Positions 41,645-60,237 of a stretch of 64,000 nucleotides of DNA are shown here, one piece after another. Numbering within the stretch: the stretch's first letter is position 1; each line of letters opens with the position of its first letter. Origin of the DNA: Gammaproteobacteria bacterium (GTDB lineage Bacteria; Pseudomonadota; Gammaproteobacteria; Steroidobacterales; Woeseiaceae); the NCBI GenBank assembly GCA_029863125.1, contig JAOTWB010000007.1, positions 1 through 64,000 on the forward strand, read 5' to 3'. Under the pieces are notes generated by a model. That model searched no databases and was not told the origin of the DNA. It saw only the letters and a program-made list of their open reading frames with translations. The translations under genes and the position numbers were made by a program.

Positions 41645-43822
<2,178 letters not shown>

Positions 43823-46115: not shown

Positions 46116-46228
46116 GGCACGCCGCCGCGGGTTGTCTATACTTACATCTAAGGCTCAATATCGTGGGGGATACCGTGCTGCAAAACCTCTCAACGCCGGA
46201 AAGAAGCAAGGTGCTAGACTCCCCGGCC

Positions 46229-46912
46229 ATGGAAAATAGCGCCACCAAGATAGCGGCCTTAAAAGAACATTACCTTTTCGCGGGTCTCGATGATACAGAC
46301 TTCGAGTCGCTGATGCAGCGGGCGTCAGTGGTCTGCGTCGAAAGGGCTGCAGTGCTTTTCCATCGCGGCGACAGGGCCGACTGCTTTTACTTCATCGATA
46401 GCGGCCAGGTCGAACTGAATATCATCGCCCCGACCGGACAGAAAAAGGTCCTCGAGGTCGTCGGGCCCGATCGCACTTTCGCCGAAGCGGTTGCGTTCAT
46501 GGGCGGCCACAAATACCCGGTCACCTGCGAGGTGCTGAGCGACGCGGTCCTCGTCCGGATTCCCAACAAGGATTACGTCGACCTCATCTACACCGATCGC
46601 GATGCGTGTATGCGCCTCCTGAGCGACATCAGTCGCCATCTTCATGGGCTGGTCCGGGAGATCGAGCGCCTGACGGTGCAGAATGCAGGCGCCCGGCTCG
46701 TCAGCTATCTGCTGGAACATGTCGTGGACACCGATGAAGATGAGGCGACGATCCGCCTCGAGTTGCCGCGTCACGTTATCGCATCGCGACTGTCGATTAC
46801 GCCGGAGACCCTGTCGCGGCTGTTACGCGAGCTGGTCGATGCGCGCGTGATCACGATCGAAGACCGTGTTATCTTCGTCCACAACCTGTCACGCCTGCGG
46901 CCCTACGATTGA
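46229..46912 (+). CDS. Crp/Fnr family regulator, DNR (NO-responsive) type
   Basis: HYLFAGLDDTDFESLMQRA...FYFIDSGQVELNIIAPTGQKKVLEVVGPDRTFAEAVAFMGGHKYPVTCEVLSDAVLVRI; HTH RHVIASRLSITPETLSRLLREL; no FNR cysteine cluster. Confidence 0.85.
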   Translation: MENSATKIAALKEHYLFAGLDDTDFESLMQRASVVCVERAAVLFHRGDRADCFYFIDSGQVELNIIAPTGQKKVLEVVGPDRTFAEAVAFMGGHKYPVTCEVLSDAVLVRIPNKDYVDLIYTDRDACMRLLSDISRHLHGLVREIERLTVQNAGARLVSYLLEHVVDTDEDEATIRLELPRHVIASRLSITPETLSRLLRELVDARVITIEDRVIFVHNLSRLRPYD

Positions 46913-46926
46913 TCCCGGATGATAAT

Positions 46927-47112
46927 ATGAGCGCGATCTACTTCACTGTCGTAGCCGTCGCGCTTTATTTCGTCTCTGACAAGTTGCTGCAGCTGGTCGA
47001 GGCTCAGGCGGGCCGCCGCTTCGAATACCGCACACTGATTTTTTTCGTGATACTGCTGACCCTTGCATTGATCACGTTTTCCTTCATCCAAGAACTAACG
47101 GGGGTATCCTGA
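46927..47112 (+). CDS. Small membrane protein upstream of putative NO reductase
   Basis: MSAIYFTVVAVALYFVSDKLLQLVEAQAGRRFEYRTLIFFVILLTLALITFSFIQELTGVS; two TM segments. Confidence 0.7.
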   Translation: MSAIYFTVVAVALYFVSDKLLQLVEAQAGRRFEYRTLIFFVILLTLALITFSFIQELTGVS

Positions 47113-47291
47113 TGAGCGATAACAATGTCGGCGAGGGCCGTACGCAGGCGGCCGAGCAAGAACCAGTGCCGCTAATGCAGAGGCTGCTGGATAACCCATT
47201 CTTACTGCTGTTGCTCGGCATCCTCGTGCCGGCAGTGTTCTACATTATCTGGGGGATCATCGAGATCACCCAGATACCGATCGCTGAATAA
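47112..47291 (+). CDS. Small membrane protein, not in supplied ORF track
   Basis: TGATG overlap with previous ORF; MSDNNVGEGRTQAAEQEPVPLMQRLLDNPFLLLLLGILVPAVFYIIWGIIEITQIPIAE. Confidence 0.65.
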   Translation: MSDNNVGEGRTQAAEQEPVPLMQRLLDNPFLLLLLGILVPAVFYIIWGIIEITQIPIAE

Positions 47292-47849: not shown

Positions 47850-49544
47850 ATGGCTACGACAACAGAATTCAGAACCTGTCCGACCACCGGTCTCAAGGTC
47901 TGCCTGGCCGCGGAAAAGCTGATAAAGGCCAACGCAGTGGCTGCGGTCATATTCCTCGCTGTCGGCGGCTTCTTCGGGTTGTTGGTCGCCCTCACCCGCT
48001 GGCCTGCCGTGCATTTCCTGCCAGCCGACTGGTTCTACCTGGCGCTGACCGCGCACGGCCTCGATGTGCTGCTGGTCTGGATCATCTTTTTCGAGATCGC
48101 CGTGCTGTACTTCGCGTCCGCCGTCCTGCTGGGTTCCAGGCTCGCGGCGCCCCGCTGGGCCTGGACCGGGTTCTGGCTGATGCTTGTCGGCGCGGTCATC
48201 ACGAACATCGCGGTCCTGCGCGGCCAGTCGAGCGTCATGTTCACGTCCTACGTGCCCATGATGGCCGAGCCGCCGTTCTATCTCGGCATCATCCTGTTTG
48301 CCGTCGGTGCCCTTCTCGGCTGTTTCGTTTTCTTCGGCACCCTGGTGGTAGCCAAACAGGAGAAAACCTATCAAGGCTCCGTTCCGCTGGTCACCTTCGG
48401 TGCCATTACGGCGGCAATCATTGCCGTATTCACGATCGCATCGGGCGCCATCATCCTGATCCCGACGCTCTTGTGGTCGCTCGGCTTCGTCAGCTATATC
48501 GATCCGCTGGTCTACAAAACGATCTGGTGGGGCATGGGGCACTCGTCCCAGCAAATCAACGTTTCTGCGCATGTCGCCGTCTGGTATGCGATTGCCGCGA
48601 TGGTGTTCGGCGCCAAGCCGCTGTCAGAGAAAGTCAGCCGCATGGCGTTCCTGATGTACATACTGTTCCTGCAGCTCGCGAGCGCGCATCACATGCTCGT
48701 GGAGCCCGGGTTCAGCTCGGAGTGGAAGATCTTCAACACGAGCTATGCCATGTACCTCGCCGTTCTCGGCAGCATGGTCCACGGCATGACCGTTCCGGGG
48801 TCGATCGAGGCGGCACAACGTGCGCGTGGTTTGACCAAGGGTATGTTCGAGTGGCTTCGCAAAGCACCGTGGGGCAATCCGGCATTCTCGGGCATGTTCA
48901 TGTCGCTCGTTTTCTTCGGTTTCATCGGCGGCATTTCCGGTGTCGTCATGGGTACCGAGCAGATCAACCTGATCATGCACAATACGCTCTACGTCCCCGG
49001 GCACTTCCACGGTACGGTCGTCGCCGGCACGACACTCGCCTTCATGGCAATCACGTACCTGCTCGTACCGCTCATCTTCAGGCGTGAGCTGAAGTTCAGG
49101 AAACTGGCCCAGTGGCAGCCGTATGTCTTCGGCATCGGCGTAGCCGGCATCTCGCTGTTCATGATGGGCGCGGGCACACTGGGTGTGGCTCGCAGGCACT
49201 GGGATATGACCTTCGCCGACGCGCAGCTGCCGTTCGACTATCCGTCAGCGGCATTCCTGATGATGGGGCTGAACGGCATGTCCGCCGTGCTTGCCGCGCT
49301 GGGCGGCATCATGTTCATTGTCGTCGTGGTCGGCTCCGTGTTCTTCGGCCGCAAACTCGGCAAAGACGAAAAACCGAGTTATCCGGAAGTACCGCCGCAG
49401 GCGGCGGCCGTCAGCCACTACGGCAGCTCGGAAACCCTCAGGATTCCGGGCACTGTGATGCTGGTTGGCATATTCTTTGTGGCTTTCGTGCTCTATTACT
49501 TTGTCAACTGGAAGTATTTGTCGGAGATATGGCCACTGAGCTAG
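47850..49544 (+). CDS. Heme-copper oxidase superfamily subunit I, putative NO reductase (sNOR/NorY type)
   Basis: 595-aa ORF trimmed to ATG 47850; TAHGLDVLLVWIIFF, ASAHHMLVEPG, LYVPGHFHGTVVAGTT; WWGMGHSSQQ replaces the HPxVY of O2 reductases. Confidence 0.8.
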   Translation: MATTTEFRTCPTTGLKVCLAAEKLIKANAVAAVIFLAVGGFFGLLVALTRWPAVHFLPADWFYLALTAHGLDVLLVWIIFFEIAVLYFASAVLLGSRLAAPRWAWTGFWLMLVGAVITNIAVLRGQSSVMFTSYVPMMAEPPFYLGIILFAVGALLGCFVFFGTLVVAKQEKTYQGSVPLVTFGAITAAIIAVFTIASGAIILIPTLLWSLGFVSYIDPLVYKTIWWGMGHSSQQINVSAHVAVWYAIAAMVFGAKPLSEKVSRMAFLMYILFLQLASAHHMLVEPGFSSEWKIFNTSYAMYLAVLGSMVHGMTVPGSIEAAQRARGLTKGMFEWLRKAPWGNPAFSGMFMSLVFFGFIGGISGVVMGTEQINLIMHNTLYVPGHFHGTVVAGTTLAFMAITYLLVPLIFRRELKFRKLAQWQPYVFGIGVAGISLFMMGAGTLGVARRHWDMTFADAQLPFDYPSAAFLMMGLNGMSAVLAALGGIMFIVVVVGSVFFGRKLGKDEKPSYPEVPPQAAAVSHYGSSETLRIPGTVMLVGIFFVAFVLYYFVNWKYLSEIWPLS

Positions 49545-49585: not shown

Positions 49586-50371
49586 ATGCCGCTTCGCACC
49601 CCAATTCTCTCCTTACTGCTCGGCGTAATGGTCGCCGGGGCCGCCGCAGTTGCAGCCGACTACGATCGCGACGATGCGCTTGAAACGAGCCAGGGCGCAA
49701 TCGGGCGGGCCGTAACGAATCGGACGTTCCGTGATGTCGATGGCCAGTCTTTCGAGCTGGACAGCCTTCGCGGCAAGCCGCTGGTGATCAGCATGATTTA
49801 TACGAGCTGCCACCACGTCTGTCCAACAATCACGAAGAACCTCGGAAGCGCCGTCGAGATTGCCGGCGAGGCGCTGGGGAAGGACGCTTTCTCTGTTGTC
49901 ACCGTCGGTTTCGACTGGGCCGTCGACACGCCAGATCGTATGCGCCTGTATGCATCCGAGCGTGGCATTGACGAGGCCAACTGGCATTTTCTGGCCGGTG
50001 ACCCGGAATCGATCATGGCGCTCAGCGAAGATATCGGCTTTCTCTTTTACCCCAGCGCCAAGGGCTTCGATCATCTGACGCAAACCACGGTACTTGACGC
50101 AGACGGCGTGGTTTACCGGCAAATTTATGGCGTGGACATCGATCCGCCGGCGCTCGTCGAGCCGCTCAAGGAACTTGTGTTCGACACGCCGCGACAGGCA
50201 GGCTTGTTCGAGCACTGGCTCGATACGTTCCGATTGTTCTGCACGGTTTACGACCCAAACAGCGGTCGCTACAAATTCGATTACTCGATAGCGATGACGA
50301 TCTTTGTCGGCCTTTTCTGCCTGACTGCGATCGCGACGTTCATCATCAGGGAATGGAAGCACGCTCGATGA
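49586..50371 (+). CDS. SCO1/SenC family copper chaperone
   Basis: GKPLVISMIYTSCHHVCPTITKNLG CXXXC motif; C-terminal TM. Confidence 0.88.
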   Translation: MPLRTPILSLLLGVMVAGAAAVAADYDRDDALETSQGAIGRAVTNRTFRDVDGQSFELDSLRGKPLVISMIYTSCHHVCPTITKNLGSAVEIAGEALGKDAFSVVTVGFDWAVDTPDRMRLYASERGIDEANWHFLAGDPESIMALSEDIGFLFYPSAKGFDHLTQTTVLDADGVVYRQIYGVDIDPPALVEPLKELVFDTPRQAGLFEHWLDTFRLFCTVYDPNSGRYKFDYSIAMTIFVGLFCLTAIATFIIREWKHAR

Positions 50372-50387
50372 CTCGCGCCACGAACGC

Positions 50388-51941
50388 ATGCGGATGGCCG
50401 CGCTAAAACGCCTTTTCCGGATTCTGTTCGACAGGGCTGAGGCATTATTTGACCTCGCCTTCGGACAACAGCTCAATCCGTTCGCATGGCTCGGCGCACT
50501 GGGTTGGTATTTTTTCTGGATCGTCTTCGGCTCGGGTATCTATCTCTATGTGTTTTTCGACACGGGCATTACGGACGCGTACACGTCGGTCCAGTACATT
50601 ACCAACGACCAGTGGTACCTCGCCGGCGTCATGCGGAGCTTGCATCGCTACGCTTCGGATGCCCTTGTCGTCGTTGTCGTCCTACATGTCATGCGGGAAT
50701 TCTCTCTGGACCGTTTGCGCGGCAAACGTTTTTTTGCCTGGATAACCGGTATCCCGTCGATATTCTTCATCTACATCTGCGGCATCAGCGGTTATTGGCT
50801 GGTTTGGGACAAGCTCGCGCAGTACATCGCGATAGCAACGACCGAATGGATCGATACGTTGCCCTTTTTTGGTGAACCCATTGCGAATAATTTTCTCAAT
50901 AGTTCGACACTGGGCGGCCGCTTTTTCACCCTGATGGTGTTCATCCATATCTTTGCGCCGTTGTTCATGCTGCTCATGATGTGGATTCACATTCAACGCC
51001 ATGCGCGCGCGCGCGTAAATCCACCGCGGCAACTGGCTATCGGCACAGCCGTCATGCTGGTCGCGTTGTCGTTCCTGCATCCGGCTGTCAGTCAGGCGCC
51101 TGCCGATCTCGATGTCGTACCGACGGAGCTCGGCTTTGACTGGTATTACCTCTTTGCTTATGCCCTGCTCGACTCTATTCCGGGCGGCCAGCTCTGGCTC
51201 ATCATCGTCGGCGGCTTCTCGCTGCTTGCCGTCATGCCGTGGCTGCCACCGGAAAAACGAGCCCCCACCGCGGTCGTTTCACTCGACAACTGCAATGGCT
51301 GCGGTCGCTGCTTCGACGACTGTCCGTTCGGCGCCATCTCGATGGTACCGCGCTCAGACGGCAAAGCATACGACTCGGAGGCAGTCGTCAATGCGGACAA
51401 CTGTCTGAGCTGTGGCATCTGTGTCGGTGCATGTCCAACGGCGACACCGTTCCGGCGAGCGACCGCAATCGTCCCCGGTATAGAATTGCCGGACCATTCG
51501 ATCGTACGGTTGCGCGGCGACACACTGGCTGCGTCAGGCCGCTTTTCCGGCGACGTTCGCGTACTCGTCTATGCCTGCGACCGCTGCGGCATCGGTCCTG
51601 ATGAAGGCAACGGCGCGCAGATAATCACGATGCCGTGTATTGCGATGCTGCCGCCGTCTTTCGTCGACTTCGTTTTGTCACGCGGGCTGGCGGATGGCGT
51701 CGCTATCGCCGGCTGCGCTTCAGAGGACTGCTACTACCGCCTTGGCGACAAGTGGACCGCCCAGAGGCTGCGCGGCGAGCGGGATCCGTACCTGCGCAAG
51801 CGCGTCGACAAATCACGGCTCAGGCACCTGCACGCGCGGCCGACGAGTCGCCGGCAGCACCACCGGTTGTTGCAGGAATTCGCTAGCTCTGTCGCGCAGC
51901 TGCCCCCAAACCCGCCGCGTGGAGGTCGCCGCGATGCATAG
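50388..51941 (+). CDS. Cytochrome b / 2x[4Fe-4S] ferredoxin / MvhD-like domain fusion
   Basis: SLHRYASDALVVVVVLHVMREF and HIFAPLFMLLMMWIHIQRH; CNGCGRCFDDCPFGAI and CLSCGICVGACPTATPF; VRVLVYACDRCGIG...MPCIAMLPPSFVDFVLSRGLADGVAIAGCASEDCYYRLGDKWT. Confidence 0.85.
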   Translation: MRMAALKRLFRILFDRAEALFDLAFGQQLNPFAWLGALGWYFFWIVFGSGIYLYVFFDTGITDAYTSVQYITNDQWYLAGVMRSLHRYASDALVVVVVLHVMREFSLDRLRGKRFFAWITGIPSIFFIYICGISGYWLVWDKLAQYIAIATTEWIDTLPFFGEPIANNFLNSSTLGGRFFTLMVFIHIFAPLFMLLMMWIHIQRHARARVNPPRQLAIGTAVMLVALSFLHPAVSQAPADLDVVPTELGFDWYYLFAYALLDSIPGGQLWLIIVGGFSLLAVMPWLPPEKRAPTAVVSLDNCNGCGRCFDDCPFGAISMVPRSDGKAYDSEAVVNADNCLSCGICVGACPTATPFRRATAIVPGIELPDHSIVRLRGDTLAASGRFSGDVRVLVYACDRCGIGPDEGNGAQIITMPCIAMLPPSFVDFVLSRGLADGVAIAGCASEDCYYRLGDKWTAQRLRGERDPYLRKRVDKSRLRHLHARPTSRRQHHRLLQEFASSVAQLPPNPPRGGRRDA

Positions 51942-52437
51942 CGCGCTGCGATTCCTGTTGCAGGGAGCGGCCTACGTGGCAATGGCGGCATTGCTAGGCT
52001 ACTTTGCGACCCTGCCTCCATACGAATACGGCAATGCGGGCCTGGCCAGCGTCAAGGTCTCGCTGAGCCACGCCGCCAATCGCGTCAGACCGTGCGTGCA
52101 ACTGACGCAGGAGGAGATTGCGGAGTTCGCGGCGAACATGCGCCGCACCGAGACCTGTGAGCGGGAACGGCTGCCGCTGATTTTCGAACTCGACATCGAC
52201 GGTGAGACTATTATTGACCTGCGAGCGGAGCCGTCGGGGCTCTGGAACGACGGCCCGGCCTCGATCTATGAACGCTTCGAGGTGGCACCGGGAACGCATA
52301 CAATCGCAGCAAGGCTGCGCGATACGGCGCGCACCGTGGGTTGGGATTACGCGCGCGAAGAAACGGTCGAGCTGCGGGCGGGCCTGTATTTCACAATTAC
52401 TTTCAAACCGGAAACGCGGGGGTTCAATTTCCAATGA
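51934..52437 (+). CDS. Hypothetical single-TM protein
   Basis: MHSALRFLLQGAAYVAMAALLGYFATLPPYEY...; starts inside end of previous gene. Confidence 0.65.
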   Translation: MHSALRFLLQGAAYVAMAALLGYFATLPPYEYGNAGLASVKVSLSHAANRVRPCVQLTQEEIAEFAANMRRTETCERERLPLIFELDIDGETIIDLRAEPSGLWNDGPASIYERFEVAPGTHTIAARLRDTARTVGWDYAREETVELRAGLYFTITFKPETRGFNFQ

Positions 52438-52826
52438 GCCTTATCGAGTGGAGAGACGACTTCAGCGTCGGCGTCGCGTCGGTGGATCTCGAACACCGTG
52501 AACTGATTGACCTGATCAATGACCTGCACACGCGGATCGGCGATAATGCTTCGGCTGATGACGTTGTCTCCATGCTTGGTGAGATCTTCGCGCAGATCTC
52601 TGCTCACTTTGCGCTCGAAGAGAAATACATACGCGAGACGCGTTATCCATTGCTCGATGCGCACAAAGCCGATCACGAGAACTTGCTCGATGATTTGCGT
52701 GACATCATGGAAAATGTGGACGTCGACGGCAGTTACAACCAGCAGGTTCTGTCGGAAAATCTGCAGCGCTGGTTCACCGAGCACTTCCGCACGCACGACG
52801 CGAAGTTGCACCGACTCGGCCACTGA
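52434..52826 (+). CDS. Bacteriohemerythrin
   Basis: IEWRDDFSVGVASVDLEHRELIDLINDLH...HFALEEKYIRETRYPLLDAHKADHENLL...WFTEHFRTHDAKLHR. Confidence 0.92.
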   Translation: MSLIEWRDDFSVGVASVDLEHRELIDLINDLHTRIGDNASADDVVSMLGEIFAQISAHFALEEKYIRETRYPLLDAHKADHENLLDDLRDIMENVDVDGSYNQQVLSENLQRWFTEHFRTHDAKLHRLGH

Positions 52827-55215: not shown

Positions 55216-55451
55216 GGTGTCTGGACCCGATTATAGGCCCTAAGGGCGGTCAATCCGGGCATTTGTCGGGCTCCGCGCGCCATACGTATCGTCCCCTATA
55301 CGAAGGATTCGGATGTGTTGATAGCCTGCGGCACGCGTACACGGCTATACTGGCGCATTCAATAAGCAAGAGCCGCGCCTGCCAACGGCCAAATTCGCCG
55401 CTTCGGTATCTCGCAGCCACACAAATCCAACAGCACACAGGGGTCCTTCCA

Positions 55452-56867
55452 TTGGACACAGCAGCTTCTTATAACGACAAAGTCGTGCGTCAATTTTCGA
55501 TCATGGTCGTCGTCTGGGGCATCGTCGGTATGCTGGTCGGCGTAATTATCGCCGCGCAGTTGATCTGGCCGCAGCTCAATTTCGATCTGCCGTTACTGAC
55601 CTACGGTCGTCTTCGACCACTGCATACCAATGCCGTCATATTCGCGTTCGGCGGTTCCGCCTTGTTTGCAACGGCGTACTACGTCGTGCAACGCACCTGC
55701 CACGTGCGGCTTGCGTTCGGCAAGCTTGCGGCATTTACGTTTTGGGGCTGGCAGCTGGTGATCGTGCTGGCGGCAATCACGCTGCCGCTCGGCATCACCC
55801 AGTCGAAGGAGTATGCCGAGCTCGAATGGCCGATCGACCTGCTGATCACCGTCGTCTGGGTCGCGTACGCGATCGTTTTCTTCGGCACGATAGCGAAGCG
55901 ACGGGTTAAACACATCTACGTCGCCAACTGGTTCTACGGCGCATTCATCATCACGGTCGCCGTGCTGCATATTTTCAACAACCTCGCCGTGCCGGTGTCC
56001 CTGCTCAAGTCCTACAGCATATACACAGGAATCGTGGATGGCATGATGCAATGGTGGTACGGCCATAACGCCGTGGGCTTCTTCCTGACGGCCGGCTTCC
56101 TCGGCATGATGTACTACTTCGTGCCGAAACAGGCGGGTCGCCCCATCTACTCCTACCGCTTATCGGTGGTTCACTTCTGGTCGCTCATTGCTATTTACAT
56201 GTGGGCGGGCCCGCATCACCTGCACTACACGTCGCTGCCGGACTGGGCGCAAACTCTGGGCATGGTTTTCTCGATCGTGCTCCTGGCGCCATCCTGGGGT
56301 GGCATGATCAACGGCATCATGACCTTGTCGGGCGCGTGGCATAAGCTGCGGTCCGACCCGATTCTGAAGTTCATGATCGTGGCGCTGTCTTTCTACGGCA
56401 TGTCGACATTCGAAGGACCGATGATGTCGATCAAGACGGTGAACGCGCTGTCGCACTACACGAACTGGACGATCGGCCACGTGCACTCGGGTGCGTTGGG
56501 CTGGGTCGCGATGATGACGGTCGGCTCGATCTACTCGCTGCTGCCTCGCCTCTACAACCGCGAGGCCATGTACAGCACGCGGCTGATCGACGTGCATTTC
56601 TGGACCTCGACCATCGGTGTCGTGCTGTATGCCGTGTCAATGTGGATTGCCGGCATCACTGAAGGCCTGATGTGGCGCGCCGTGAATGATGACGGCACGC
56701 TGACCTATTCGTTTGTCGAGTCGCTCAAAGCTGTCGAGCCGTATCACTACATGCGGCTGCTCGGCGGCCTGGTGTTCTTCTCCGGAATGATCATCATGGC
56801 TTACAACGTCTGGAAAACCGTGAGCGACAAGAAACCGGTGCCCGTCGCGGTACTGGAACCGGCGTAA
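55452..56867 (+). CDS. ccoN: Cytochrome cbb3 oxidase subunit I
   Basis: [31 protein letters not shown]...[14 protein letters not shown]...[29 protein letters not shown] start 55452. Confidence 0.95.
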
Positions 56868-56881
56868 CAGGAGAGCCAGCG

Positions 56882-57490
56882 ATGCGCCACGAGCAAATTG
56901 AAAAAAGTCTGAACCTGATGATCGTGCTTATCATCGTTGCGATCAGTATAGGCGGTTTGGTCGAAATCATTCCGCTGATGTTCAGCTCCGACGCGACCGA
57001 ACCTGCCGAGAACATCGAGCCTTACAGCCCGCTGCGTCTCGCCGGCCGCGACGTATACGTCCGCGAAGGCTGCTACAACTGCCACTCACAGATGATCCGG
57101 CCGTTTCGCAGTGAGACGGAGCGCTACGGTCCGTTTACGACAGCCGGTGAAACTGTCTATGACCGACCGTTCCAGTTCGGCTCCAAGCGGACCGGTCCCG
57201 ATCTTGCCCGCGTAGGCGGCCGCTACAGCGATGAATGGCAGCGACTGCACCTGACCGACCCCCGCGCGCTGGTTCCGGAGTCCAACATGCCGGGTTACCC
57301 GTGGCTCCTCGAGAATACGGTCGACCCCGAGCTGGTCACGGCGAAACTGAAGGCGCTCCAGTGGCTCGGAGACCCGTATACCGACGATCAGATTGCCGGT
57401 GCTGCAGCGGCCGTCGAGGGACGCACCGAAATGGATGCGCTCGTCGCGTATTTGCAGGGGCTCGGCACCAACCGCCGGGACCGCCGGTAA
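56882..57490 (+). CDS. ccoO: Cytochrome cbb3 oxidase subunit II
   Basis: [29 protein letters not shown]. Confidence 0.95.
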
Positions 57491-57496
57491 GCGCCG

Positions 57497-57667
57497 ATGG
57501 ATATCAACGACCTGCGCGGATTTCTCACGGCCGTCATATTCTTTGCCTTTATTGGCATCTGGATATGGGCCTGGAGCAGCCGGCGCAAGAAAGACTTCGA
57601 GGCTTCCGCGGCGCTGCCGCTGGAAGAGGACAAAGCATCAACACACTATGAGCGGGAGAACATCTGA
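57497..57667 (+). CDS. ccoQ: Cytochrome cbb3 oxidase small subunit CcoQ (56 aa, not in ORF track)
   Basis: MDINDLRGFLTAVIFFAFIGIWIWAWSSRRKKDFEASAALPLEEDKASTHYERENI; between ccoO and ccoP. Confidence 0.88.
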   Translation: MDINDLRGFLTAVIFFAFIGIWIWAWSSRRKKDFEASAALPLEEDKASTHYERENI

Positions 57668-58557
57668 TGCCTGCATTCTGGCACTGGTTCGTTGCTGCTG
57701 GCACGATACTTTTCGTCATCTGGTGCGTCTGGCTGGTCAGCTGGTCTGCAAAACAGGGTCCGCAAAACGTCGCCGACGATGACGTCGTCGGCCACAAGTG
57801 GGACGGTGACCTCGAGGAGTGGAACAACCCGGCTCCAAAGTGGTGGTTATACCTGTACATCATCACCATCGCGTGGGCCGTTGCGTACATGATTGCCTAC
57901 CCGGGCCTCGGCAGCTGGGATGGCGCCCTGGGCTGGTCACAGCAGGGCCAGTACGAGGCGGAAATGCAGGCCGCGGCAAGCCGCTACGAACCCATCTACG
58001 CGAAATTCGCTGCCATGGACTTCGAGGAGCTGTCGCAGAATCCGGATGCAAATCAGCTCGGCAAGAGCCTGTATGCGAGTTACTGCACGACCTGCCATGG
58101 CTCGGATGCCCGTGGCGCGCCTGGGTTCCCGAATCTGACCGACGATGACTGGCTGTGGGGTAACAGCGAAGAGGCGCTGACCACGACGCTCAAGAACGGC
58201 CGCAGCGGTGTGATGCCGGTGCTTGCGCCCGCATTGGGTGGCGACAAAGGTATCGATAACATGGTCAGCTACGTGCAGAGCCTGAGCGGAATTGCAGAAA
58301 CGGACGCGGACGCCATGAGCGCGCAGCCGACGTTCCTCGCGCTTTGCAGCGCCTGTCACAATGCCGACGGCACGGGAAATCCGATTTTCGGCGCGCCGAA
58401 TCTGACGGACGACATCTGGCTGTACGGTTCGTCGGACGAGGCAATCCGGACGACCCTTGTCCAGGGGCGTAACGGCATCATGCCGGCTCACGGGCAACTG
58501 CTTGGAGACCACCGCACCAAGATTCTGGCGGCGTATGTCTACAGCCTGGCCAACTAG
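57667..58557 (+). CDS. ccoP: Cytochrome cbb3 oxidase di-heme subunit III
   Basis: VVGHKWDGDLEEWNNPAPKWW; CTTCH and CSACH heme motifs. Confidence 0.94.
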   Translation: MPAFWHWFVAAGTILFVIWCVWLVSWSAKQGPQNVADDDVVGHKWDGDLEEWNNPAPKWWLYLYIITIAWAVAYMIAYPGLGSWDGALGWSQQGQYEAEMQAAASRYEPIYAKFAAMDFEELSQNPDANQLGKSLYASYCTTCHGSDARGAPGFPNLTDDDWLWGNSEEALTTTLKNGRSGVMPVLAPALGGDKGIDNMVSYVQSLSGIAETDADAMSAQPTFLALCSACHNADGTGNPIFGAPNLTDDIWLYGSSDEAIRTTLVQGRNGIMPAHGQLLGDHRTKILAAYVYSLAN

Positions 58558-58570
58558 AGCACGGCCTGGG

Positions 58571-58867
58571 ATGATCAGCGAAGAGTACCGCGGCGCGAAG
58601 CAGTGGGGCCGTGACAAGCAGGCGGTCTTTACGGTCGTCTGGATCTCATTTCTAAGTGCCGCTATCGCCACGATGGTGTTCTTCGCTTTTTTCGATCCTG
58701 TCGAACTCGGCGGAATCCTTGATGAAGACTTCGACATCAGTCGTGACGCGGGCTACGCGATCGGCTTTTTCTTTTTCTGGGTGCTGTGCGCATTTTGCTC
58801 CGGCGTCACCGCGTACCTCGTGCGCACTGCTCCCAGGAAGCGTGACGGCAAACACCGACGGAAATGA
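58571..58867 (+). CDS. Hypothetical membrane protein between ccoP and ccoG
   Basis: MISEEYRGAKQWGRDKQAVFTVVWISFLSAAIATMVFFAFF...; two TM segments; ATG 58571. Confidence 0.65.
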   Translation: MISEEYRGAKQWGRDKQAVFTVVWISFLSAAIATMVFFAFFDPVELGGILDEDFDISRDAGYAIGFFFFWVLCAFCSGVTAYLVRTAPRKRDGKHRRK

Positions 58868-60237
58868 GCAATACAGAAAGTGCCTCGATGTACGAGAGCG
58901 CGAAAAAGATCTATCCGCGTGAAATCGGTGGACGCTTCGACAAGCTCAGTAAGCTCGCGACCGTTACCTTGCTCGGCCTGTATTACGCCGTGCCCTGGTT
59001 ACTGTGGGACGGGCGCCAGGCAGTGCTGTTCGATCTGCCGGAGCGCAAGTTTTACCTGCTCGGACTGACGCTCTGGCCACAGGATTTCCCGTACCTTGCG
59101 TTGCTTCTGATCATCGCGGCTTTGTCGCTGTTTTTTTTCACGGCGCTGGCCGGCCGCCTCTGGTGCGGTTTTGCCTGTCCCCAGACCGTCTGGACAGAAG
59201 CATTCATCTGGATGGAACAATTTACCGAGGGCACGCGCTCACAGCGCATGAAGCTCGACAAAGCTCCGTGGTCATTGACCAAGTTCCGCAAGAAAGCATC
59301 AAAGCAGTTTCTCTGGATCACGTTCTCAATGTGGACCGGCTTTACGTTCGTCGGCTATTTCACGCCAATCCGGGAGCTCGGCCTCGATATCCCCAACCTG
59401 AGCGTTGGCGGCTGGACGTTGTTCTGGGGCCTCTTCTACGGCTTCGCCACGTACGGCAATGCCGGCTACATGCGCGAACAGGTTTGCAAATACATGTGTC
59501 CCTATGCGCGTTTCCAGAGCGCGATGTTCGACAAGGACACGTTGATTATTTCCTACGACGAGAAACGCGGCGAGCCGCGCGGTAGCCGCGGCCGTTCCGT
59601 CGATCGCAAGGAAGCCGGGCTGGGCGACTGCATAGACTGCCAGCTCTGCGTACAGGTGTGCCCGACCGGCATCGATATCCGCGAAGGACTGCAGTACGAA
59701 TGCATTGCCTGCGCCGCATGCATCGACGCCTGCGATTCCATCATGGACAAGATGGATTATCCGCGTGGCCTCGTGCGCTACACGACGGAACACAACCTGC
59801 ACAGTGAAAAGACCCGCGTGCTGCGGCCAAGAATGTTTGTTTACGGGACCTTGCTCGTGATCCTCTGCGCCGCACTGGTGACCTCGATGTCGATGCGCAA
59901 GCCGGTCATACTCGACGTCATCAGGGACAGAAACACGCTGTACCGCGAATTGCGGAACGACCTGATCGAGAACATCTACACGATCAAGATCATCAACCAA
60001 AGCGACGACGCCCGCGGCTTCGCGCTCAGCGTCAGCGGCGTACAGGGTATTACGCTCGACGGCGTGGAAGACGAACTGCTGGTCGATGGCGGCGGCGTAC
60101 TGTCACTGCCGGTTCGAGTCAGGGCGCATCGCGAAAACGCCTACGGCGTCAACGAAATCGAGTTTACGGTCGAGGCCACTGATGACGCGTCGCTCGTAAT
60201 AGGCGAAGATAGCCGCTTTCTCGGCCCCAGCCCCTGA
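58864..60237 (+). CDS. ccoG: Cytochrome c oxidase accessory protein CcoG (RdxA/FixG)
   Basis: CGFACPQTVWTEAFIWME; CIDCQLCVQVCPTGIDIREGLQYECIACAACIDACD. Confidence 0.94.
   Translation: MSNTESASMYESAKKIYPREIGGRFDKLSKLATVTLLGLYYAVPWLLWDGRQAVLFDLPERKFYLLGLTLWPQDFPYLALLLIIAALSLFFFTALAGRLWCGFACPQTVWTEAFIWMEQFTEGTRSQRMKLDKAPWSLTKFRKKASKQFLWITFSMWTGFTFVGYFTPIRELGLDIPNLSVGGWTLFWGLFYGFATYGNAGYMREQVCKYMCPYARFQSAMFDKDTLIISYDEKRGEPRGSRGRSVDRKEAGLGDCIDCQLCVQVCPTGIDIREGLQYECIACAACIDACDSIMDKMDYPRGLVRYTTEHNLHSEKTRVLRPRMFVYGTLLVILCAALVTSMSMRKPVILDVIRDRNTLYRELRNDLIENIYTIKIINQSDDARGFALSVSGVQGITLDGVEDELLVDGGGVLSLPVRVRAHRENAYGVNEIEFTVEATDDASLVIGEDSRFLGPSP

Follow-up and report, generated by a model that had tools for sequence, protein, structure and literature searches.

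A single protein that joins a cytochrome b, a ferredoxin with two [4Fe-4S] clusters and a FlpD/MvhD domain, here named CbFdD, is tightly tied to a NOR whose sequence fits the eNOR type. The formation of N2O by enzymes of the eNOR type has received little study, and CbFdD appears to be the near-constant partner of these enzymes across proteobacteria. The protein is encoded in the window, by which we mean the whole 64,000-nucleotide stretch of DNA that was analysed, and it lies in an operon with the order CuA subunit, NOR catalytic subunit, SCO, CbFdD, h155 and bacteriohemerythrin. The features of the window referred to below are these.

41645-43822, minus strand: NirS, cytochrome cd1 nitrite reductase (PF02239, 490.6 bits)
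46163-46912, plus strand: CRP/FNR-family regulator, upstream of the operon (PF00027 and PF13545)
46927-47112, plus strand: small membrane ORF at the head of the operon (from its translation)
47112-47291, plus strand: small membrane ORF beginning PLMQRLLDNPFLLL, like the ORF that heads the operon of locus L058
47303-47836, plus strand: COX2-like subunit with the CuA-type motif CNEFCGIGHHSM (PF00116, 23.4 bits, cut-off 22)
47850-49544, plus strand: NOR catalytic subunit of the COX1 family, probably eNOR-type (PF00115, 224.5 bits)
49586-50371, plus strand: SCO1/SenC protein with a C-terminal membrane helix (PF02630, 54.6 bits)
50388-51941, plus strand: CbFdD, the cytochrome b - 2x[4Fe-4S] - FlpD/MvhD fusion (single ORF, 517 aa)
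50460-50993, plus strand: cytochrome b N-terminal domain of CbFdD, residues 25-202 (PF00033, Cytochrome_B, 62.1 bits, cut-off 27.2)
51099-51257, plus strand: second cytochrome b part of CbFdD with the Qo-type loop, residues 238-290 (PF00032, 23.4 bits, cut-off 20.7)
51276-51443, plus strand: ferredoxin part of CbFdD with two [4Fe-4S] clusters, residues 297-352 (Fer4_7, Fer4_10, Fer4)
51543-51902, plus strand: FlpD/MvhD domain of CbFdD, residues 386-505 (PF02662, above cut-off)
51934-52437, plus strand: h155, 167 aa, sharing its first 8 bases with the end of CbFdD
52434-52826, plus strand: bacteriohemerythrin (NF033749, 95.4 bits, cut-off 84)

The original prediction, made from the sequence of this DNA, described the 50388-51941 ORF as one fusion protein. 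Its coordinates proved exact, and the Pfam models for cytochrome b, Fer4_7 (residues 301-352, 43.1 bits against a cut-off of 27) and FlpD all matched above their cut-offs, while none of the Pfam and NCBIfam models scanned covers the whole protein. An HMM check had been proposed for the MvhD-like domain in particular, and here PF02662 matched residues 410-505 with 41.6 bits, the cut-off being 22.3; a profile built from the FlpD part only also matched MvhD chains in solved structures (9sw2_D, E 8.5e-12; 5odc_D, 4e-11). The membrane cytochrome b with paired His residues was likewise confirmed, as the four heme ligands H86, H100, H187 and H201 are invariant in 33 of 33 homologues. The predicted Cys clusters fared well in most respects: the eight ferredoxin Cys and, in the FlpD domain, C397, C417, C443 and C448 are invariant in the same 33 sequences, but C400 of the ACDRC motif is not conserved. 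The invariance of the His, Asp, Trp and Cys positions is far beyond chance. C417, C443 and C448 align with Cys residues of the solved MvhD, and the four invariant Cys of the domain would be able to hold a putative [2Fe-2S] cluster. The charges of the membrane loops obey the positive-inside rule, which would place the C-terminus, and hence the iron-sulfur module, in the cytoplasm. In-frame stops in several homologues were considered as selenocysteine codons; in G191, G239, G180 and G347 what had been read through is an ordinary terminal stop. A genome-wide FlpD search returned, besides CbFdD, one other protein, a QmoB-like flavoprotein adjoining QmoC. The QmoB- and QmoC-like genes lie on another contig of the same genome (C23; L001:234-3357) and suggest sulfur metabolism in the host.

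The cytochrome b part of CbFdD extends beyond the heme-binding domain. Residues 236-291 align with residues 256-312 of mammalian cytochrome b, and the PEWY loop of bc1 corresponds to FDWY in CbFdD and to xDW[FY] in the homologues. Asp251 and Trp252 of this Qo-type loop are invariant in the 33 homologues, the Glu of PEWY being replaced by Asp in every one of them, and a GYW[LM]VWD stretch at the position of the cd1 helix is conserved as well. The AlphaFold2 model of CbFdD is fairly confident (pLDDT 85, pTM 0.83), and its best matches in the PDB are the cytochrome b chains of bc1, over about 290 columns. A Rieske or cytochrome c1 gene was absent from the CbFdD locus, and a scan for the Rieske motif found none at any CbFdD locus; as a positive control, the scan did pick up the motif at two loci of true bc1 cytochrome b, L115 (G097) and L116 (G091). 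All six genomes checked, including that of CbFdD itself, carry a normal bc1 cytochrome b. Given the separate bc1 and the lack of a Rieske motif around CbFdD, we reject the idea that CbFdD is the cell's complex III, or a simple copy of it.

As the original prediction had stated, COX2-like, COX1-like and SCO proteins are encoded directly upstream of CbFdD. To describe how general this arrangement is, 80 CbFdD relatives were found in genome contigs, 49 of them with enough flanking sequence for neighbours to be counted by targeted tblastn; since the loci were fetched by way of CbFdD, the counts describe its neighbourhood and not its frequency. Both NOR subunits, SCO and h155 are present at all 49 loci, with SCO as the next gene upstream of CbFdD at 45. 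A hemerythrin lies downstream at 42 loci and CtaB (heme O synthase) is found at 39. A cytochrome-cd1 protein occurs at 23, a count that may include NirN- or NirF-like paralogues, and NosR and NnrS occur at 11 and 7 of the 49, respectively. Many loci have a CRP/FNR-family relative nearby. In the window, the search for FNR boxes gave two matches with one mismatch each, no more than expected by chance, and none directly 5' of the NOR operon. Two further observations concern the surroundings in the window. NirS, as read from its translation, carries an additional cytochrome c-like CAACH ahead of the usual CAGCH and the d1 domain. A few kb downstream, at 55263-60237, ORF translations point to a cbb3-type oxidase cluster and a CcoG-like polyferredoxin protein, which places genes for O2 and NO reduction next to each other.

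Where our results depart from the original prediction is in the type of the NOR, which had been labelled sNOR. The solved structures nearest to subunit I are ba3 oxidases, and the subunit retains every heme and copper His. The position of the cross-link Tyr of O2 reductases is occupied by Gln, in the motif GHSSQQIN; Gln stands at this position in 21 of 21 subunit I sequences, and the motif is present in all readable loci. According to a table in PMC8756737, after Hemp and Gennis, Gln at this position marks eNOR and Asn marks sNOR, and by that criterion the partner enzyme would be of the eNOR type rather than an sNOR. The cupredoxin-type second subunit is as in eNOR, being a COX2-like protein with a CuA motif, although its PF00116 match lies only marginally above the cut-off. 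The sNOR of Nitrosomonas europaea has even been argued to reduce O2 (PMC6967387).

The constant partner h155 is made of one membrane helix and a beta domain in which two Cys residues are nearly invariant; both are lost in L128 and L130, two of the 27 aligned sequences. Its predicted structure, helix plus beta domain, is of high confidence (pLDDT 95); a fold search returned nothing at E <= 0.001, and h155 had no match among the Pfam and NCBIfam models.

The association with the NOR is also seen when whole genomes are compared. In each of three samples, the same genomes were searched with a profile for CbFdD (A1) and with one for NOR subunit I (A2), and in these counts the cytochrome may be either CbFdD or a sister protein of the NAD(P)H type, described below. 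A sample of one order (147 genomes) contained 24 genomes with both, none with the cytochrome only, one with the NOR only and 122 with neither; the single NOR-only genome, G097, has a NOR fragment at a contig end. In the phylum sample (399 genomes) the corresponding numbers were 29, 5, 1 and 364, the five cytochrome-only genomes being at most 82% complete, fragmented or contaminated, and one of them carrying a NOR fragment. A second order sample (220 genomes) gave 19, 1, 0 and 200, and here the one cytochrome-only gene sits on a 4-kb contig. Fisher's test, which ignores shared ancestry, gave p values of 1e-26, 8e-38 and 2e-26 for the three samples, respectively, and the samples overlap slightly, with at least G000 and G512 counted in two. 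Because NOR-linked loci were the source of profile A1 and its threshold was strict, distant fusions elsewhere could be missed. Additional evidence comes from three genomes (G191, G219 and G180) in which one contig carries the NOR with CtaB and SCO and a separate one carries CbFdD with h155, a cd1 gene (nirS) adjoining the latter pair in two of them. These split loci show that the pairing does not arise from adjacency alone, and that the copper and heme maturation genes travel with the NOR and not with CbFdD. The link spans Alpha- and Gammaproteobacteria, the former Betaproteobacteria included, and the hosts include Gallionella, Acidiferrobacteraceae, Roseovarius and Bradyrhizobium. In all three genome samples, then, the fusion accompanies the NOR rather than standing beside unrelated systems that lack one, with few exceptions when CbFdD and its sister are counted together, and this supports the proposal that the membrane protein carries electrons in connection with NO reduction.

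In the sister protein, CbFNR, the same cytochrome b core is joined to a [2Fe-2S] ferredoxin of the plant type and to a reductase that binds FAD and NAD(P)H (Fer2, FAD_binding_6 and NAD_binding_1). It is found in a betaproteobacterial order and in some other gammaproteobacterial genomes; many genomes have both CbFdD and CbFNR, and some only one of them. The slot between SCO and h155 is taken by CbFNR in L140 and L142 and by CbFdD in L143 and L144, so that h155 accompanies the two alike. In a tree with the CbFdD cores, the root of which is uncertain, the CbFNR cytochrome cores form one group (support 95/88). BenC and NqrF, which are relatives of the CbFNR flavin module, accept electrons from NAD(P)H. 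The simplest reading is therefore that the cytochrome b of the sister receives electrons from the cytoplasm, and CbFdD might likewise be fed by a donor that docks on its MvhD domain. Three features go beyond the original prediction: the sister, the constant partner h155 and the second stretch of cytochrome b, which bears the Qo-type loop.

Some of the operons contain extra genes. Tandem pairs of CbFdD genes occur in some genomes (L079:256-3599, L130:7635-10943 and L128:2389-5798), and because the two copies fall in separate groups of the tree, the duplication looks old. A second COX1-family protein of 455-469 aa, HCO2, is present in many operons (for example, L079:4280-5656, L074:8151-9560, L082:8504-9910 and L030:12679-14046), where it accompanies the NAD(P)H-type sister or tandem CbFdD copies. 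By eye, it keeps the heme His and is without the two adjacent His of helix VII that bind copper; it matched no NCBIfam model, and a sequence search of the PDB returned no relative.

The hypothesis that would best accommodate these results is that CbFdD, as a membrane subunit with an exchangeable cytoplasmic module, feeds electrons into a respiratory branch dedicated to the NOR, and judging from sequence we give this reading an even chance of being correct. It is based on the domain content, the invariant ligands, the co-occurrence with the NOR and the pairing across split contigs, and also on the exchange of CbFdD and CbFNR in one slot, the NAD(P)H-type relatives BenC and NqrF and the positive-inside charges. 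The iron-sulfur module would lie in the cytoplasm, where a soluble reduced carrier would dock on the MvhD domain, and electrons would pass from the [2Fe-2S] cluster through the two [4Fe-4S] clusters to heme bH and on to heme bL. On the periplasmic side they might be handed to a quinone at the Qo-like site or, by way of h155 or a cytochrome c, to the NOR. NirS would be the likely source of NO, which the NOR would reduce to N2O; a role in NO respiration is suggested by the denitrification genes nearby, namely NirS in the window and cd1, NosR and NnrS in the relatives. In the relatives with CbFNR, the NAD(P)H-FAD-[2Fe-2S] module would substitute for the MvhD module and do the same job. Several points weigh on this proposal. 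No donor gene is conserved next to CbFdD, and the direction is deduced from the flavin module of the sister, which could equally run backwards. Moreover, the normal bc1 cytochrome b in the six genomes means that the NOR may not need a route through CbFdD, and proton-motive force would be spent if electrons moved outward to a quinone site on the periplasmic side.

One could also envision that electrons flow the other way, quinol being oxidised at the Qo-like site and the electrons moving inward via bL and bH to the iron-sulfur/MvhD or FAD module, where they would reduce a cytoplasmic carrier or NAD(P)+, the driving force being either the membrane potential or a bifurcation in which NO reduction would form the high-potential branch. 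In bc1 electrons pass between the hemes in this same direction, and the Qo-type loop and cd1 stretch are conserved in CbFdD. Bifurcating Hdr systems use MvhD-type domains as modules for electron transfer, which is also in keeping with this scheme, and some of the hosts are lithotrophs that could make use of it (Gallionella, Acidiferrobacteraceae; QmoB/QmoC in the present genome). We nevertheless regard reverse flow as rather unlikely, because the Rieske motif that accompanies the true bc1 cytochrome b is missing near the CbFdD loci, many hosts, such as Roseovarius and Bradyrhizobium, are heterotrophs, and the relatives of the CbFNR flavin module normally oxidise NAD(P)H. A special case is quinone bifurcation without a Rieske protein at the Qo-like site, NO reduction forming the high-potential branch and the iron-sulfur/MvhD or FAD-NAD(P)H module the low-potential one. 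This appears quite improbable to us; if it were true, ferredoxin-like carriers or NAD(P)+ would be reduced in the course of NO respiration.

Alternatively, CbFdD might be a reductase for the assembly or repair of the NOR, electrons from the cytoplasm being passed through the membrane to reduce copper, thiols or damaged centres, as has been proposed for CcoG and NosR. These are membrane iron-sulfur proteins that serve the maturation of other copper enzymes and so provide a precedent, and the SCO gene directly upstream in 45 of the 49 loci, together with the two nearly invariant Cys of h155, would fit such a function. It seems unlikely, however, since in G191, G219 and G180 it is SCO and CtaB that stay with the NOR while CbFdD and h155 are encoded elsewhere, beside nirS in two cases; furthermore, an assembly factor would not need a conserved quinone-type loop, and the h155 Cys are absent from the L128 and L130 sequences. 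It could also be argued that CbFdD is a passenger, co-inherited with the NOR and working in general quinone or ferredoxin metabolism, given that the co-occurrence statistics take no account of shared ancestry and that the profile derives from NOR-linked loci. Such an explanation would have to contend with a link that persists across Alpha- and Gammaproteobacteria, on separate contigs and through the exchange with the sister, and with the nature of the six genomes that have the cytochrome without the NOR, five of which are poor or contaminated assemblies while the gene of the sixth is on a 4-kb contig. We think that there is very little chance of it being right.

If CbFdD is the electron-input subunit that we propose, it could feed NO reduction straight from cytoplasmic carriers, bypassing complex I and bc1. 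Since MvhD and NAD(P)H modules replace each other naturally on one cytochrome b, where the electrons come from and which way they run can be put to the test: for the NAD(P)H-type form, the donor lends itself to simple assays. In addition, cytochrome b of the CbFdD type is a useful marker for this NOR, even across contigs.

Among known systems, CbFdD resembles the cytochrome b of bc1 and b6f (PF00033 plus PF00032) in its fold, heme ligands, Qo-type loop and cd1 stretch, with a profile alignment spanning residues 18-301, but it ends after the sixth predicted helix and continues into the iron-sulfur/MvhD tail. The best NCBIfam match of its N-terminal half is ExtP, a b-type cytochrome of selenite/tellurite operons (NF040969; 85 bits, far below the cut-off of 290), a family that is without the iron-sulfur tail and belongs to a different operon. 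The tail has the same domain order as the C-terminal module of HdrA2 and QmoB (2x[4Fe-4S] plus FlpD). The HdrA2 model aligns with residues 292-506, although its 58.5 bits are far under the cut-off of 1100, and the QmoB of the same genome is 26% identical over 235 aa; that QmoB has the FAD/thioredoxin-reductase-like HdrA core, whereas CbFdD has a cytochrome b in its place. The MvhD-type iron-sulfur module is best known from methanogens. With the MvhD/VhuD/FlpD delta subunit of [NiFe]-hydrogenase or formate dehydrogenase, CbFdD shares PF02662 and Cys residues at matching places; MvhD, however, is a separate subunit, whereas the CbFdD version is a fused domain in which one Cys of a CxxC is not conserved. 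No NiFe-hydrogenase motif was found in the 150 stretches scanned, and Hdr genes are not among the conserved neighbours. BenC and NqrF are soluble proteins or subunits of a Na+ pump, whereas in CbFNR the same module is fused to a bc-type cytochrome b. A fusion of cytochrome b and FlpD associated with a NOR was not found described in the literature searched, the main eNOR paper (PNAS 2024) lying outside its scope. Every module of CbFdD is already known, and what is new is their combination.
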